A stretch of DNA of 32,412 nt, taken from Caldifarciminota bacterium. Its GTDB lineage: Bacteria; Hydrothermota; Tepidihabitantia; Tepidihabitantales; Tepidihabitantaceae. The stretch is from positions 1,447,946 through 1,480,357 of the forward strand of contig CP070680.1 of assembly GCA_020352555.1 (NCBI GenBank), given 5' to 3'. A program made the position numbers and the translations under genes. Positions 2,453 to 19,521 of this stretch are shown in pieces (the first letter of the stretch is position 1; the number at the start of each line of letters is the position of its first letter). A model generated the notes under the pieces. That model was not told where the DNA came from and did no database searches. It saw only the letters and a program-made list of their open reading frames with translations.

Positions 2453-3979
2453 CTACGACTCCAGCCGGCCGACTTCCTTCTCGACCGCGTCGAGCAGCTC
2501 GCCGGAGCGGACGACTTCGGTCAGGTTGTTGATGTCGTACTGGACCGGCCGGTCGTCGTCCATCTTCTCGACGTGCTTGCGGATGACGTCGTAGGCGGGC
2601 TGGGTGCCTTTGCCCAGTTTGAGCGGCTTGCGGAACTCGACCGCCTGGGCTCCGGCCATCAGCTCGATGGCGACCACGGCCCAGGCGTTCTCGATAATCT
2701 GGTTGGTCTTGAGCGCAGCGGTGAAGGACATCGAGACGAAGTCTTCCTGGTCTGCAGCAGCAGGTATCGAGCCGACCGAAGCCGGGGCAGAGAGGATGCG
2801 GTTCTCGCACAGCATCATGCCCTGGGTGTACTGGGTCAGCATCAGGCCGGACATCATGCCCGCGCCCTTGGTCAGGAAAGCCGGCAGGCCGCAGGAGAGG
2901 TGGCGGTTCATCAGCCGGTTGGTGCGGCGCTCGGACAGGACGCCGATCATGGTTATCGCCGAGCCGATGGTGTCGAGCGACATGCCGAGCGGCGTGCCCT
3001 GGAAGTTGGCGCCGGTCAGGTAGGCCTTGTCCTCGGGGAAGAAGATGGGGTTGTCGCCGACCCCGTTGAGCTCGATATGGAACATCTGGCGCGCCCATTT
3101 GAGCGAGTCCTTGGCCGCACCGACCACCTGGGGCGTGGAGCGCAGGCTGTAGGCGTCCTGGACCTTTTTGCCCGGCTGCTTGAGCATCTCCGAACCTTCG
3201 ACCAGTCTGCGGACGTTGGCGGCACATGATACCGCGCCCGGGTAGCCGCGGGCTTTGTGGATCCGCTCGTCGTAGGCGGCCATGTTGGCGTTGACCACCT
3301 CGAGGGTGATGCCGACCGCGACCTCTGAGGTCCGGAAGAACCGGTCGGCGTCGTAGAGCAGCAGCGCGCCGTACCCGGCGGTCATGTTCGAGCCGTTGAT
3401 GGTGGCCAGGCCGTCGCGGGCCTCGAACTCGATGGTTTCGATGCCGGCGGCAGCCATCGCCTTGTCGCCGGGCATGCGCTTGCCCTGGTAGAAGGCCTCG
3501 CCTTCGCCCAGCAGCACGATCGCCATCTGGCTCATCGGCGACAAATCGCCGCAGGCACCGACCGAACCCTTGTCGAACACGACCGGGGTCACGCCTTTGT
3601 TGAGCATTTCGACCATGGTCTCGACGACTTTGAGCCTGATGCCGGAGTTGCCCAGGCCCAGGATGTTGATGCGGGAGCAGATCGCGGCGCGGACGACCTC
3701 GTTCGGCAGCGGCTTGCCGCAGCCGGCCGAGTGGCTGTAGACGAGGAAGCGCTGGAACTGCTTGAGCTGGTCGGGCGACAGCACCAACTCGGACAGCTCG
3801 CCGATGCCGGTGGTGATGCCGTACATGACCGCGCGCTCGGCCACTTTCTCCTCGACGAAACTGCGGCAGTTCTCGATCCGCTCCTTCGCCGCCGTTGCGA
3901 GTTCGACCTTCTCGCCGTCGCGCGCGACGCGAAGCAGGTCCTCGATTTGAAGATTCTTGCCGTCCAGTACTACCGCCAT
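2453..3979 (-). CDS. hutH: MIO-type aromatic amino acid ammonia-lyase, histidine ammonia-lyase-like
   Basis: 508 residues, the normal length for HAL. It would catalyse non-oxidative deamination of histidine to urocanate in the cytoplasm. Landmarks align with bacterial HAL numbering: Tyr53 in YGITTGIG, His83 in SHSAG, the MIO-forming tripeptide at 142-144, the NGSNM segment, and QED near residue 410. The tripeptide is Ala-Cys-Gly (Cys codon TGC at 3553-3551) instead of the usual Ala-Ser-Gly. MIO can in principle form from cysteine, and a laboratory Ser-to-Cys variant of the Pseudomonas enzyme is reported to be active. The usual QEDH is QEDF here, so another aromatic substrate or an aminomutase role is possible. 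The start has a good site (GGAGGT, 5 nt before ATG). No other hut gene is nearby; the Mut7-C gene lies 57 bp upstream on the same strand. Confidence 0.88.
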   Translation of the reverse strand: MAVVLDGKNLQIEDLLRVARDGEKVELATAAKERIENCRSFVEEKVAERAVMYGITTGIGELSELVLSPDQLKQFQRFLVYSHSAGCGKPLPNEVVRAAICSRINILGLGNSGIRLKVVETMVEMLNKGVTPVVFDKGSVGACGDLSPMSQMAIVLLGEGEAFYQGKRMPGDKAMAAAGIETIEFEARDGLATINGSNMTAGYGALLLYDADRFFRTSEVAVGITLEVVNANMAAYDERIHKARGYPGAVSCAANVRRLVEGSEMLKQPGKKVQDAYSLRSTPQVVGAAKDSLKWARQMFHIELNGVGDNPIFFPEDKAYLTGANFQGTPLGMSLDTIGSAITMIGVLSERRTNRLMNRHLSCGLPAFLTKGAGMMSGLMLTQYTQGMMLCENRILSAPASVGSIPAAADQEDFVSMSFTAALKTNQIIENAWAVVAIELMAGAQAVEFRKPLKLGKGTQPAYDVIRKHVEKMDDDRPVQYDINNLTEVVRSGELLDAVEKEVGRLES

Positions 3980-13351: not shown

Positions 13352-13510
13352 CAGCCATCTCACTCGCTGCACTCTCCAGCCCGGGTGGGTGAGGCGGTCC
13401 GACTCGTGCCGGATTCGTCAGCCGGTCTGTGAGCGGCGATGGGTCTTTCGGAATCAGGCACAGTTTCACCCTTTGTGCCGGAGCAATCTGTCAAACCAAG
13501 GAGGCTAAGG

Positions 13511-16500
13511 ATGAGAAGAGTCGTGCCGGTTCTGCTGGGCGCCTTTGCTCTCCTGACGGCCGGCGGCACGTGGATGGACAGCAAGCCGGCCAAAACCCAG
13601 GTCAGGGACGTATCGGCCTTTCCCAGGACACTGAAACCCAGGACCGTGGAAGTACAGATGCCCAAAGAGGCGCCGCAAGCGTTTCTGGGCGGCATCGAGC
13701 CCGGAATGCTGTCGAACCGGTCCTGTCGGCCGCGGCCGGTGCCGATGAAGCTCGAGCCGACTTTCAACCCGAGCGAAACGCTCAAATGGCACAATGACAC
13801 CCTTGGGGGCGGTGTCGGCCTGACTGCGGGCGGAACCTTCTACGGAGCGGTCAGGTTCACCCCGACTACGGGCTGTACTTTGACCAACGTGTTGTGGTAC
13901 AACTACTACGCGGTGCCCAACTGGGCCTCAATCCTGGTCTACGGCCCGGGCACCATATACGTACCAGGGACTCGGATCGACTCGTTCGGGGCCGCGCCGA
14001 GCGATACGGGGTGGCAGAGCGTAGCATTGTCCACACCGCGCAGGTTTCCGTCTGGCCAGGATTTCTGGATATGCGTGCAGGTCAACCACGACGCCGGGGA
14101 GTGGCCGATCGGGTATGACACCAAGCTCCAGGATACAACGCGGGGCGGCTACGTCAGTGTGGACGGCGGCACCTGGACCGAACTGTACAAGGTCGGAATC
14201 GACCGCAACTGGCTGATGTCTGCAGTAGTCGAGCCTGAGGCCGTGCCTGATTCCGACATGGCGGTGGTCGGGATAACAGTGCCGGAGATGATTCAGCCCA
14301 ACCGCTGGGTGACGATTTCGGCAACGGTGCAGAACCTGGGCCTGGACACGATGGTGCCCGGAATCCCGGTCGGGCTGCACATCACCGGTCCGGGCGGGTA
14401 CAACTACTACGACACCGCGGCTACCACCGACACCCTGCTGTTCGGCGACACCGAGTACATCACTTTCTCGCCCAACTGGTACACGCCGACAACGACCGGA
14501 ATGTACTACGTCAATGTCTGGACCGAGCTTTCCGGGGACCAGAATCCGGACAACGACACGCTTGTCGCGCCGGTCGACGTGACCTGGTGGATAACCTATG
14601 CGAGCTGGACAGCGCAGCAGTTCTACACCAGGCAGCCGCTGGAGCGCGGGACGATGTTCTTCCCGAACGATTTCGCCCTCACCTACCCGATCCAGGTCGA
14701 GTCCCTGAAAGCCGCTTTCAGCTGGTCTCCCAGCCTGCCCTGGGCAGACAGCACCATCATATTCAAGATTTACGGCGGCGACCTGTACACCGTCTTGTAC
14801 GAGGACACGGTCGAAGTGCTGCCCGGTGACAACGTGCTCTACGTAGCGGACAGCGTGGTGCTCGACAGCAGCTTCTTCGGGTTCACCCTCAGGCCGCTCA
14901 GGTTTGATTCAGGCCCGACGAGCTGGGCCGACGCGAACCACGACAGCCGCAGCATATTCGGTGACCCGGACTCGGGCTGGTACTACTGGACACTGGGCGA
15001 GTTCCACACCGCGGCGTTCGTCACTTTCCAGGGCGTGACCGACGACGTCGGGTTCTACGACATCGACGTGCCGCTGGGCCATGTCGAGCCGGGCGACACG
15101 GTGACCCCGACCGGCTGGGTGCGCAACTACGGGGTCGCGTACCAGAGCGCAGTGCCGTGCTCGTGCATCATCGTCGACAACGCGACCGACGCCATCATCT
15201 ACCGGATGGGGACAACGGTTTCGGTGCTGGCCGGAGACACGGCGATGGCCGCGTTCCCGGACTGGGCGGTGCCGGATTCGGCCCAGCCGTTCCAGGTGTA
15301 CATGATCACCTACCTTTCCGGAGACGAGAACCCGTCCAACGACGGGGTGACGACCATCTTCATGGGCTTCCCGGTCGAGGACGAGCTGCTCTGCCCGGCG
15401 CTGCAGCAGGGCGTGACCGTGGACGGTGCGCTGAACTCGATGGAATGGTCTGACGCACCGCGCTACGACGTGTCCAACATCTACGGCTGGCTCGACCCGC
15501 TGTACCGCTGGTACCCGGGCAACGTCTACCTGTCCCTGAAGCACGACGACGACTACGTCTACATGGGCTTTGACATGCCGTACACGACCTCGTACGAGTG
15601 GACCGAGCTCGGGCTGTACCTCGACGAAGACGGCGACGGTGCATGGGCCGGGGACTCGAGCGAAGGCAACTACTGGTACAACACGGAGAGCGATTCGGTC
15701 CGGTACCGGTCCCTGCCTCAGCAATACTACGACCCGCTGGTCGAGACCGCGATGGCTGGCTACAGCATGTCCTCAGGCCACCTGCAGATGGAGCTGGCTT
15801 TGCCGATCGGCACTGCGATCGAGGCGATGGACGTCAACCCGGCCGCAGACACGCTCGGGTTCTGGATGTATGACTACTACCCGGTGTACGACGAGTGGCC
15901 AGGGTACTGGCACACGCTGATGAACGAGAACAACTGGTACGACCCGTCCTACTACGGCGACCTCGTAATCACCGGCCCGCTCGGGAACCCGGACGCCGGG
16001 GTGCTGGAGATTACCGCACCGATCGGGTTCAACGACACCAGCGCCGTCATCACGCCGAGGGTGGTGGTCAGGAACTACGGCGATGTCGAGCTGAGTTTCG
16101 ACGCGTGGTTCATCATCGACGACGGCACCGACGCCGAGGTGTACCGCCAGTCGGCAACGGTCCTGGCGCTGGCTGCCGGTGAGGACCGCGGAGTGACCTT
16201 TGCCGAATGGGCCAAGCCCCATCCTGAGGGCGTGTACACCACCCGCTGTTCACTGGCTCTGAACGACCTCGAGCCGGGCAATGACCAGGCGACAGGCACG
16301 TTTTCTGTCGGGGTCAGGCCGCCCTGGCCTTCGGGCTGGACAGAGGTCATGTCAATGCCGGTGAGCCCGTCCGGCCGTCCGGTCAAGCGCGGCGGCTGGG
16401 CCACGGTGCACGATGCCGACGGCAAGATATACGCTGCCAAGGGCTACAAGACGACCGACTTCTACACCTATGACCCGCGCATCGACCTGTGGGAGGTGCT

Positions 16501-17614
16501 GTCCGGCATGCCGTACCAGACCCACCCGCTCTGGAGCCGCAAGCCGCCCCGCAAGGGCTCGAAGGGAGTTAGCGACGGCGATCGGTACATCTACGTCACC
16601 CAGGGCAACAACACGCTCGGGTTCTGGCGCTACGACGCCCAGACCGACTCCTGGGCGATCCTGCCAGACGTGCCGCTTGGCATCCACCGCAAGAAAGTCA
16701 AGGGTGGGACCGACATGTTCTACGTGCCGGGCCGGCGCGACTCGTCGTACGTGTACCTGCTCAAGGGTTACAAGACCGAGTTCTACCGGTTCCGCATCGC
16801 GGACTCGACCTGGGAGCCCCTTGAACTGGCGCCGTTCGTCCGGCGCAACAAGTGGGACAAGGGCTCCTGGCTCGCGCGCCAACACCGGGGACGCGGGCAC
16901 GGCGAGGGCGATAGGCTGATCTTTGCCCACCAGGCCAAGTACCACGGTTTCTTCACCTTTGACCTGGACAGCATGAAGTGGAACACCACCGCCCTGCCGG
17001 TGATGCCGTACATCGGCATGATGGGCCGGAGTAAGAAGTCCAAGGACGGCGGGTCGGCCGATTTCTTCGACGGCAGGGTCTACGCACTCAAGGGCGGCAA
17101 CACCCAGGAGTTCTGGAGGTACGACCCCCTTGATTCGACCGGCTACCAGTGGACCGAGCTCGAAACCATACCCGCGTTCGGCTCGACCGGGCGCAAGAAA
17201 AGGGTGAAGTACGGGGCCGACCTGGTGCACTGGGGCAACGGCGCGTTCTTCACGCTCAAGGGCAACAAGACGGTCGAGATGTGGCGCTACGTGGTCCCGC
17301 TGGGCTACGGCTCGCGGCCTGCGCGCAGCGGGGTTCTGGCCGAGGCGGTCGACGCCCGCAAGCCGGGTATCGACATCGCGCCCAATCCGCTCGCGCACGG
17401 GCGCGCGACGCTGCGCTACGTCCTGCCCAGGGCAGGACCGGTAGCGGTCAACGTGTTCGACGTTTCCGGCCGGAGCGTCAGCTCGCACGTCCTGGTCGCA
17501 GGAAGGAGCGGGGCGGTCGGCCTCGACCTCAGAGAGCTGAGCGCAGGCATCTACCTGGTCCGGTTCGACACCGAAGGGTTCAGCACGACCGAGAAACTGG
17601 TGGTGCAGCACTAG
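13511..17614 (+). CDS. Large secreted multidomain protein: CARDB, CBM-like, beta-propeller, sorting domain
   Basis: 1367 residues from the ATG at 13511 (AAGGAGG 6 nt upstream), starting with a signal peptide (MRRVVPVLLGAFALLTAGGT). Three CARDB/Ig-like modules begin near residues 249, 513 and 828, each ending in GDQNPDND- or GDENPSND-like motifs. Residues ~628-800 resemble a CBM9/DOMON-type sugar-binding fold (VTVDGALNSMEWSDAP, LGLYLDEDGDGAW). Residues ~955-1270 form a Kelch-like propeller with six blades marked by K-G-x-x-T-x-x-F-W-R-Y-D. Residues ~1284-1367 are a sorting domain (IDIAPNPL, VNVFDVSGRSV, LSAGIYLVRFD, KLVVQH). No enzyme active site is visible; an adhesive or carbohydrate-binding surface role is inference. 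A strong hairpin and a group II intron follow directly. Confidence 0.88.
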   Translation: MRRVVPVLLGAFALLTAGGTWMDSKPAKTQVRDVSAFPRTLKPRTVEVQMPKEAPQAFLGGIEPGMLSNRSCRPRPVPMKLEPTFNPSETLKWHNDTLGGGVGLTAGGTFYGAVRFTPTTGCTLTNVLWYNYYAVPNWASILVYGPGTIYVPGTRIDSFGAAPSDTGWQSVALSTPRRFPSGQDFWICVQVNHDAGEWPIGYDTKLQDTTRGGYVSVDGGTWTELYKVGIDRNWLMSAVVEPEAVPDSDMAVVGITVPEMIQPNRWVTISATVQNLGLDTMVPGIPVGLHITGPGGYNYYDTAATTDTLLFGDTEYITFSPNWYTPTTTGMYYVNVWTELSGDQNPDNDTLVAPVDVTWWITYASWTAQQFYTRQPLERGTMFFPNDFALTYPIQVESLKAAFSWSPSLPWADSTIIFKIYGGDLYTVLYEDTVEVLPGDNVLYVADSVVLDSSFFGFTLRPLRFDSGPTSWADANHDSRSIFGDPDSGWYYWTLGEFHTAAFVTFQGVTDDVGFYDIDVPLGHVEPGDTVTPTGWVRNYGVAYQSAVPCSCIIVDNATDAIIYRMGTTVSVLAGDTAMAAFPDWAVPDSAQPFQVYMITYLSGDENPSNDGVTTIFMGFPVEDELLCPALQQGVTVDGALNSMEWSDAPRYDVSNIYGWLDPLYRWYPGNVYLSLKHDDDYVYMGFDMPYTTSYEWTELGLYLDEDGDGAWAGDSSEGNYWYNTESDSVRYRSLPQQYYDPLVETAMAGYSMSSGHLQMELALPIGTAIEAMDVNPAADTLGFWMYDYYPVYDEWPGYWHTLMNENNWYDPSYYGDLVITGPLGNPDAGVLEITAPIGFNDTSAVITPRVVVRNYGDVELSFDAWFIIDDGTDAEVYRQSATVLALAAGEDRGVTFAEWAKPHPEGVYTTRCSLALNDLEPGNDQATGTFSVGVRPPWPSGWTEVMSMPVSPSGRPVKRGGWATVHDADGKIYAAKGYKTTDFYTYDPRIDLWEVLSGMPYQTHPLWSRKPPRKGSKGVSDGDRYIYVTQGNNTLGFWRYDAQTDSWAILPDVPLGIHRKKVKGGTDMFYVPGRRDSSYVYLLKGYKTEFYRFRIADSTWEPLELAPFVRRNKWDKGSWLARQHRGRGHGEGDRLIFAHQAKYHGFFTFDLDSMKWNTTALPVMPYIGMMGRSKKSKDGGSADFFDGRVYALKGGNTQEFWRYDPLDSTGYQWTELETIPAFGSTGRKKRVKYGADLVHWGNGAFFTLKGNKTVEMWRYVVPLGYGSRPARSGVLAEAVDARKPGIDIAPNPLAHGRATLRYVLPRAGPVAVNVFDVSGRSVSSHVLVAGRSGAVGLDLRELSAGIYLVRFDTEGFSTTEKLVVQH

Positions 17615-18051: not shown

Positions 18052-19521
18052 GTGGAGCAGGGCACGGACTTGTGCGACTCGCAGGACGAGCGAGGAAGGC
18101 AGACTTTCCCGGATAGGGATACTACTGGTCGGGCGAAGGCGGTGAAGCCGCCGGGATTCGACCAGAGGGCCGAGCCGTCCTCGGCGCCACAGGAGGAAGT
18201 GTCTGGAGCGACAGACGGTACGGGCGTATGGGAGCGGGTGTTCGGTCGGGACAACCTGCTGCGTGCGCTTGAGCGGGTCGAGCGGAACGGCGGAGCACCG
18301 GGCAGTGACGGGATGACGGTGGTAGAACTCCGGCCGTATCTCAAGCGGCACTGGGTAGAAATCAGGGCTGCGCTCGATGCGGAGACCTATCAGCCGAAGC
18401 CGGTGCTCAGGCGGGAGATACCGAAGCCTGGGGGCGGGGTGAGGCTGCTGGGCATACCGACGGTGACAGACCGTTTCATACAACAGGCGCTGGTCCGGGT
18501 GCTTGTGCCGCTGTTTGAGCCGGTATTCTCAGACTCAAGCTACGGGTTTCGGCCTGGGCGGAGAGCCCACGATGCGGTCAGGAAGGCCCAGGAGCATATC
18601 AACGAAGGGTATGGCTGGGTAGTGGACATAGACCTGGAGAAGTTCTTTGACCGGGTGAACCACGACAGACTGATGGCACGGGTGGCGCGAGTAGTGAGAG
18701 ACCGGCGGGTGCTCAAGCTGATCCGGAAGTATCTGGAGTCCGGGGTAATGGTCAACGGGGTGAAGGTCGAGGTGCGTGAGGGTACGCCGCAGGGCGGGCC
18801 GCTGTCGCCACTCTTGGCCAACATCATGTTGGACGACCTGGACAAGGAACTGGAGAAGCGGGGGCATCGGTTTGTGCGCTATGCGGACGACTGCAACATC
18901 TACGTCAGGAGCAAGCGGGCCGGCGAGCGGTTGCTAGCCGGCATCGGGCGATTTCTGGAGCGGAAGCTACGGCTTCGGGTCAACGCGAGGAAGAGCGGTG
19001 TAGATCGGCCGCAGAAGCGGAGGTTTCTGAGTTTCAGCTTCTACTGGCGGCAGGGTCGAGCGCTGATTCGCGTGGCCGACGAGGCGAGAGACCGCTGCCG
19101 GGAGCGACTGCGTCAGCTAACCCGACGCGGCCGGTCTGGTCTGGTGGTCGAAGTCATCCGTGCCGTCAACGAGTATATGACGGGATGGGTGGAGTACTTC
19201 CGACTGGCTGAGACGGACTGGGCGTTTCGGGAGATGGACCGGTGGCTCAGGCGGCGGCTGCGGCAGATGGTCTGGAAGCGCTGGAAGCGAGGGCGGACAC
19301 GCTACCGAAAGCTTGTGGAACTGGGCGTGCCGTCGGAGCTGGCGGCTCTTGGCGCGGGTGGCACGAGTCCATGGCGCATGGCGGCGACACCAGTGGTGAA
19401 CATGGCCTTGAGCAACGCCTACTGGGAACGGGAAGGGTTGATGAATATCGCCGAACGCTATCGTCAGTTGCGCGAGACTCTGCGAACCGCCGGATGCAAT
19501 AAAGCACGTCCGGTGGTGTGA
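18052..19521 (+). CDS. ltrA: Group II intron reverse transcriptase/maturase
   Basis: 489 residues from a GTG preceded by an AGAAGGG site. The RT domain runs from ~60 to ~330: NGGAPGSDGMTV, IPKPGGGVRLLGIPTVTDRF, SSYGFRPGRRAHDAV, the DIDLEKFFDRVNHDRL block with catalytic Asp, GTPQGGPLSPLLANIMLDDLD, and YADD at 277-280. The maturase X domain (~350-470) includes WVEYFRLAE and NAYWEREGL. There is no C-terminal HNH endonuclease. It would assist splicing and perform target-primed reverse transcription. The reading frame does not stop before the catalytic RNA: the last 11 residues (TAGCNKARPVV) are encoded by domain V itself. No frameshift or inactivating change is visible. Confidence 0.95.
   Translation: MEQGTDLCDSQDERGRQTFPDRDTTGRAKAVKPPGFDQRAEPSSAPQEEVSGATDGTGVWERVFGRDNLLRALERVERNGGAPGSDGMTVVELRPYLKRHWVEIRAALDAETYQPKPVLRREIPKPGGGVRLLGIPTVTDRFIQQALVRVLVPLFEPVFSDSSYGFRPGRRAHDAVRKAQEHINEGYGWVVDIDLEKFFDRVNHDRLMARVARVVRDRRVLKLIRKYLESGVMVNGVKVEVREGTPQGGPLSPLLANIMLDDLDKELEKRGHRFVRYADDCNIYVRSKRAGERLLAGIGRFLERKLRLRVNARKSGVDRPQKRRFLSFSFYWRQGRALIRVADEARDRCRERLRQLTRRGRSGLVVEVIRAVNEYMTGWVEYFRLAETDWAFREMDRWLRRRLRQMVWKRWKRGRTRYRKLVELGVPSELAALGAGGTSPWRMAATPVVNMALSNAYWEREGLMNIAERYRQLRETLRTAGCNKARPVV
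19486..19517 (+). ncRNA. Group II intron domain V
   Basis: A 9-bp lower stem (19486-19494 with 19509-19517, including the G-U wobble of the catalytic triad CGC), a two-base CG bulge (19507-19508), a 3-bp upper stem TGC/GCA and a six-base loop. Most domain V hairpins have a 5-bp upper stem and GNRA loop, so the tip is shortened. It lies fully inside the maturase reading frame. Confidence 0.85.

Follow-up and report, generated by a model that had tools for sequence, protein, structure and literature searches.

Enzymes that depend on the cofactor 4-methylideneimidazol-5-one (MIO) form it from an Ala-Ser-Gly triad that has been called 'strictly conserved' (PMC3903478) or open to variation only at its first position (PMC9002059). 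Can nature also start from Ala-Cys-Gly? The question is raised by a hutH-like gene in a 32,412-nucleotide stretch of the genome of Caldifarciminota bacterium (contig CP070680.1, positions 1,447,946 to 1,480,357; the whole stretch is called the window below). Its product is, with high probability, a functional histidine ammonia-lyase (HAL), which converts histidine to trans-urocanate and ammonia, belongs to a distinct and widespread subfamily, and has its MIO built from Ala-Cys-Gly. The gene and the tripeptide are located as follows.

2453..3979, reverse strand: hutH-like gene for a 508-aa MIO-family histidine ammonia-lyase of the Cys-type subfamily (open reading frame, PF00221, TIGR01225, AlphaFold2 model)
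3548..3556, reverse strand: Ala142-Cys143-Gly144, the MIO-precursor tripeptide (read from the sequence; aligned to S143 of Pseudomonas putida HAL)

The reverse-strand DNA from 3571 to 3536, AAG GGT TCG GTC GGT GCC TGC GGC GAT TTG TCG CCG, translates to K-G-S-V-G-A-C-G-D-L-S-P, with Ala142 encoded by GCC (3556-3554), Cys143 by TGC (3553-3551), and Gly144 by GGC (3550-3548). In a phmmer alignment with P. putida HAL (PpHAL; 1gkm), C143, Y53, and H83 of the window protein were paired with S143, Y53, and H83 with zero offset. This DNA reading and register bear out the tripeptide and the TGC codon proposed by the initial annotation, as well as its placement of Tyr53 and His83 at the standard positions; the end that it gave for the site (3556) was correct, but its start (3549) was one base short. 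As the window protein has Ala-Cys-Gly in place of the Ala-Ser-Gly precursor of MIO enzymes, we class it as a variant, and not as a plain member, of this group.

The protein matches PF00221 with E = 1e-166 and is the only PF00221 protein in the 3.26-Mb genome. It scored 548.2 bits against TIGR01225, the hutH equivalog (EC 4.3.1.3; cut-off 539.15), and remained under the cut-off of every other MIO equivalog in NCBIfam, including those for tyrosine aminomutase (TAM, 369 vs 501), phenylalanine aminomutase (PAM, 344 vs 800), tyrosine ammonia-lyase (TAL, 342 vs 700), and phenylalanine ammonia-lyase (PAL, 244 vs 519). Its AlphaFold2 model (pLDDT 90.1, pTM 0.92) has the MIO-family fold, with a TM score of 0.93 to PpHAL (1b8f) in Foldseek. 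The window protein and PpHAL (HutH; 1b8f, 1gkm) have the same length, register, fold, and catalytic residues, and their numbering is identical through residue 195, at about 38% identity; they differ in that PpHAL has Ala-Ser-Gly and FHA/NQEDH, whereas the window protein has Ala-Cys-Gly and FQG/DQEDF. The MIO-family fold is also shared by the ergothionase of Treponema denticola (6s7j), which is 26-27% identical to the model but acts on a different substrate. Histidine ammonia-lyase is the best-supported function of the window protein, and its role is probably in ordinary metabolism.

Could the cysteine be a sequencing or assembly error, or a mutation private to this genome? The genome is represented by an assembly, without reads, which leaves room for such an error. 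However, a search of 60 relatives found the gene, 70-83% identical to that of the window, in 17 other genomes of the family, and all 17 have Cys at site 143, encoded by TGC in some and by TGT in others (in G005, where two contigs each hold a part of the gene, the piece with the motif has TGC). Together with the more than 80 named loci of many phyla described below, these independent assemblies refute the explanation by error or private mutation, whose probability is practically nil.

We scanned a public genome set for GxVGxCGDLxP, a Cys-only pattern from which no Cys:Ser ratio can be derived, and obtained at least 114 stretches. Those listed were mostly intact MIO genes, with a few chance matches or fragments, and most of them had in common a signature unlike that of canonical HALs: TGIG, Asp189, Ser281 (PpHAL 284), ANFQG, and ADQEDF. 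Among the matches listed, the subfamily with this signature extended to at least about 20 named phyla and more than 80 named loci with Cys, including Bacteroidota, Acidobacteriota, Ignavibacteriota, Myxococcota, Elusimicrobiota, and Cloacimonadota, and archaea recorded as Methanobacteriota or Thermoplasmatota, a spread in which individual metagenome bins may be contaminated. In a tree with site 143 masked, the subfamily occupied one side of a branch separating it from the sampled canonical HALs (SH-aLRT 100); judged by this tree, the window protein belongs to a distinct monophyletic HAL subfamily. As the tree was a quick build with long outgroup branches, placements inside the subfamily are soft; the gene of L109 (candidate division WOR-3) clustered closely with genes from class-mates of the window's genome. 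The hutH model matched each of the 37 subfamily members scanned, and annotation would probably label them simply as HAL, a possible reason why the change to Cys has drawn no comment. The subfamily, seen mostly in uncultured lineages, is large, apparently unstudied, and present in many bacterial phyla and some archaea. A sequence search found no solved structure inside it. The best match of its profile among solved structures (452 bits) was the HAL of Thermoplasma acidophilum (7tqr), whose chain letters lack the tripeptide, as for a modified residue; it was rejected as a subfamily structure since it has the canonical NFHGEP and NQEDH signatures. A divergent Ser-type HAL of G072 (L189), 47% identical to the window protein, also lies outside the subfamily and is possibly an intermediate.

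The other active-site residues and the positions that mark the subfamily are located in the window as follows.

3821..3823, reverse strand: Tyr53, the catalytic Tyr, in register with PpHAL Y53 and kept in all subfamily rows except one with masked letters
3731..3733, reverse strand: His83, HAL active site, in register with PpHAL H83 and 100% conserved
3395..3397, reverse strand: Asn195, in register with PpHAL N195 and 100% conserved
3140..3160, reverse strand: Gln274-Tyr277-Arg280 (PpHAL Q277, Y280, R283), 100% conserved
2996..3004, reverse strand: Phe326-Gln327-Gly328 of the 'ANFQG' subfamily signature; Phe is PpHAL F329, and Gln replaces His330
2738..2749, reverse strand: Gln411-Glu412-Asp413-Phe414, 'QEDF' (PpHAL 413-416); Glu412 is PpHAL E414, 100% conserved
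3866..3868, reverse strand: Cys38, a subfamily-specific cysteine (alignment frequencies)

The window protein has all the HAL catalytic residues (Y53, H83, N195, Q277, Y280, R283, F329, and E414 in PpHAL numbering), and these, together with M382, are invariant among Cys members, the single exception being an R at residue 53 in the row whose sequence has masked letters there. In the HAL of Geobacillus (GkHAL), mutation of Y52, H82, N194, or E411 abolished activity (PMC11432326), and the counterparts of these four residues are 100% conserved in the subfamily, the masked row at residue 53 excepted. The conservation of catalytic residues through the Cys members argues against a dead enzyme, and a pseudoenzyme is accordingly disfavoured. 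It also bears on the proposal that the Cys stays unconverted, so that the protein is inactive or uses a plain thiol in place of MIO. That proposal is very unlikely, given a catalytic site conserved across phyla, Ser/Cys swaps without a compensating change (see below), the position of these genes as the sole HAL candidates in Hut-encoding genomes, and the reported activity of the engineered S143C form of PpHAL. The view of the initial annotation that a native Cys precursor could stand in an otherwise intact HAL is, at the level of sequence, supported by the same conserved residues.

Is histidine the substrate? The window's genome has one MIO gene, one urocanase, a HutI match of 439 bits (cut-off 298), and a moderate FTCD-domain match of 90 bits; the FTCD domain is also found outside histidine breakdown. 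The window gene is thus the sole MIO gene of a genome with urocanase and HutI, and no other candidate for the first step of the pathway is visible there. The Hut genes of this genome are scattered and form no operon, with urocanase at 1.08 Mb, HutI at 2.18 Mb, FTCD at 1.43 Mb, and HAL at 1.45 Mb. One MIO gene and a urocanase were present in 17/17 same-family genomes searched, and over 61 genomes urocanase was found in 59, a HutI-type protein above cut-off in 55, and an FTCD-domain protein in 56. The subfamily gene adjoins hutU in six loci (L032, L033, L070, L076, L123, and L138; four neighbours Pfam-confirmed), the hutU-adjacent genes coming from Myxococcota, Elusimicrobiota, Planctomycetota, and archaeal loci, and in class-mates of the window's genome it lies about 6-8 kb from hutU. 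Genome G053 holds both kinds of HAL, with the subfamily gene near hutU and the canonical gene distant. The protein's sequence, its clade, its predicted fold, a conserved active site, and this pathway context were established directly; the maturation of Cys143 to MIO and the use of histidine as substrate are what we infer.

Three genomes (G049, G054, and G059) had urocanase and HutI matches and no MIO gene that we could find, which may reflect incomplete assemblies or another route to urocanate. Separately, a histidyl-tRNA synthetase gene lies near the subfamily gene in eight loci (L051, L087, L101, L106, L108, L120, L121, and L122), which include Bacteroidota and one Coatesbacteria; 2/8 synthetases were checked with Pfam.

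Several observations weigh against an ordinary HAL matured from Cys. Our literature search found no biochemistry on any subfamily member. About 30 positions set the subfamily apart from canonical HALs, including the change from FHG to FQG beside the active-site Phe: Q at PpHAL position 330 is present in 100% of the subfamily, and His in 97% of canonical HALs. Judging from these positions, kinetics or side substrates of the subfamily could differ. Some genomes also hold a canonical Ser-HAL, which at four loci stands directly in tandem with the Cys gene, and two canonical sister groups, f25 (AGT) and f26 (TCN), switched serine codons with no Cys seen. The diagnostic positions, as well as the adjacency of canonical and subfamily genes in Delongbacteria, Cloacimonadota, and Melioribacteraceae, an arrangement compatible with two functions, favour an enzyme that makes MIO from Cys but acts on another aryl amino acid or as an aminomutase, with FQG/QEDF marking a new specificity. 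Such an enzyme is unlikely, as H83 and E414, the His-lyase residues, do not vary, the scores are above the hutH cut-off and far below those of aminomutases, TAL, and PAL, genomes encoding urocanase and HutI have this gene as their sole MIO gene, and in G053 it is the subfamily gene that lies near hutU. The initial annotation had read QEDF as a hint of altered substrate preference. This did not hold: at PpHAL position 416, Phe is found in 100% of the subfamily but also in 18% of the canonical HALs sampled (54% have His), and key HAL residues are conserved in the subfamily, so QEDF was rejected as a substrate marker.

Canonical Ser-type and Cys-type HAL genes stand side by side on one strand at L061:758-3849, L099:849-3912, L114:120-3209, and L037:1-3079, in loci of Delongbacteria, Cloacimonadota, and Melioribacteraceae; L049 and L145 likewise hold both motifs. 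Such pairing allows a division of labour. MIO enzymes are tetramers with shared active sites, and mixed oligomers of the paired proteins are conceivable.

With histidine ammonia-lyase as the preferred function, how would the cofactor arise from Cys? The amide nitrogen of Gly144 would attack the carbonyl of Ala142, and after this closure the ring would dehydrate autocatalytically; the side chain of Cys143 would be eliminated as H2S, where that of Ser would leave as water, so that the mature cofactor would be identical from either residue. Retey's group (1994) reported that PpHAL S143C is converted to active enzyme, reportedly by this route; it is an engineered single mutant with Cys at the MIO serine, whereas the Cys of the window protein is natural and widespread. 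The literature search found neither the S143C report nor a natural X-Cys-Gly MIO precursor, and as it left out most subscription journals, the novelty of a natural Cys precursor is provisional. With a thiol precursor, maturation might also depend on redox state, sulfide, or metals, and HAL would then be switched on after translation, perhaps with the involvement of Cys38, which is found in 96% of Cys members and 100% of Ser members of the subfamily and in 8% of canonical HALs; we regard such a switch as quite unlikely.

On this reading, Cys and Ser are nearly interchangeable at site 143, and a change of one base in the codon (TGY to AGY or TCN) lets lineages drift from one to the other. A Ser/Cys-neutral census, in which a Ser-or-Cys codon pattern was searched in 147 genomes of the window's phylum and the hits were classed by similarity and signature, gave 35 Cys and 16 Ser in the subfamily, and 0 Cys and 66 Ser in canonical HALs (Fisher's p = 9e-18, a descriptive value that ignores relatedness). 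These ratios hold for the window's phylum only, as Cys members outside it come from the Cys-only scan. A subfamily tree built without site 143 required at least five Ser/Cys changes, and starred branches made four of these unavoidable. Ser members occupied three parts of it: genus g17 of f8, a portion of f6, and families f13/f16/f32. Both f6 and the f13/f16/f32 group use the two kinds of serine codon, AGY and TCN, alongside TGY, and seven changes suffice for the three codon classes on the subfamily tree. Two steps separate AGY from TCN (PMC6872785). As each is possibly one step from TGY, a Cys that works at this site would offer a natural bridge between the two serine codon sets, which is a parsimonious though not proven account of these sequences.

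No residue was found to track the Cys/Ser swap, either in a column comparison of three Ser/Cys sister sets or in a mutual-information scan, as one would predict for Ser and Cys entering a common maturation route. Position 346 was considered as a compensating residue, being linked in two clades, and was dropped when the signal disappeared over the whole set.

Cys is also scattered among canonical HALs, with 13 cases in our sample, for which a 90-row tree required at least five changes. The active sites of these proteins are otherwise like those of canonical HALs, and four of their genes adjoin hutU, in Aliidiomarina taiwanensis (a named strain, L052) and in a Woeseiaceae, an Oligoflexia, and a Bacteriovoracaceae genome (L093, L094, and L134 being the other loci). 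The suggestion that Cys143 might mark a clade was therefore right insofar as Cys dominates one HAL subfamily, but Ser members are nested inside it and Cys occurs outside. The variation in this famous motif of the active site is real and conserved, follows the phylogeny in a structured way, and is chemically plausible. A separate all-Cys group of canonical type (L046, L079, and L119), from Desulfobacteraceae and Bacillota and including the named strain Maledivibacter halophilus M1, has further cysteines at two positions near active-site residues.

If the large natural Cys clade does mature, it would provide a second natural precursor for the MIO cofactor and a concrete case where Cys may bridge two serine codon sets. 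Its members would be ready-made enzymes for the study of H2S loss in maturation, with Ser and Cys sister proteins for comparison. Motif-based annotation that requires Ser may miss Cys-type enzymes.

Two other genes of the window were identified, both on the forward strand.

18052-19521, forward strand: group II intron reverse transcriptase/maturase with RVT_1 and GIIM domains
13439-17614, forward strand: 1391-aa Kelch-repeat protein with a C-terminal Por_Secre_tail sorting domain
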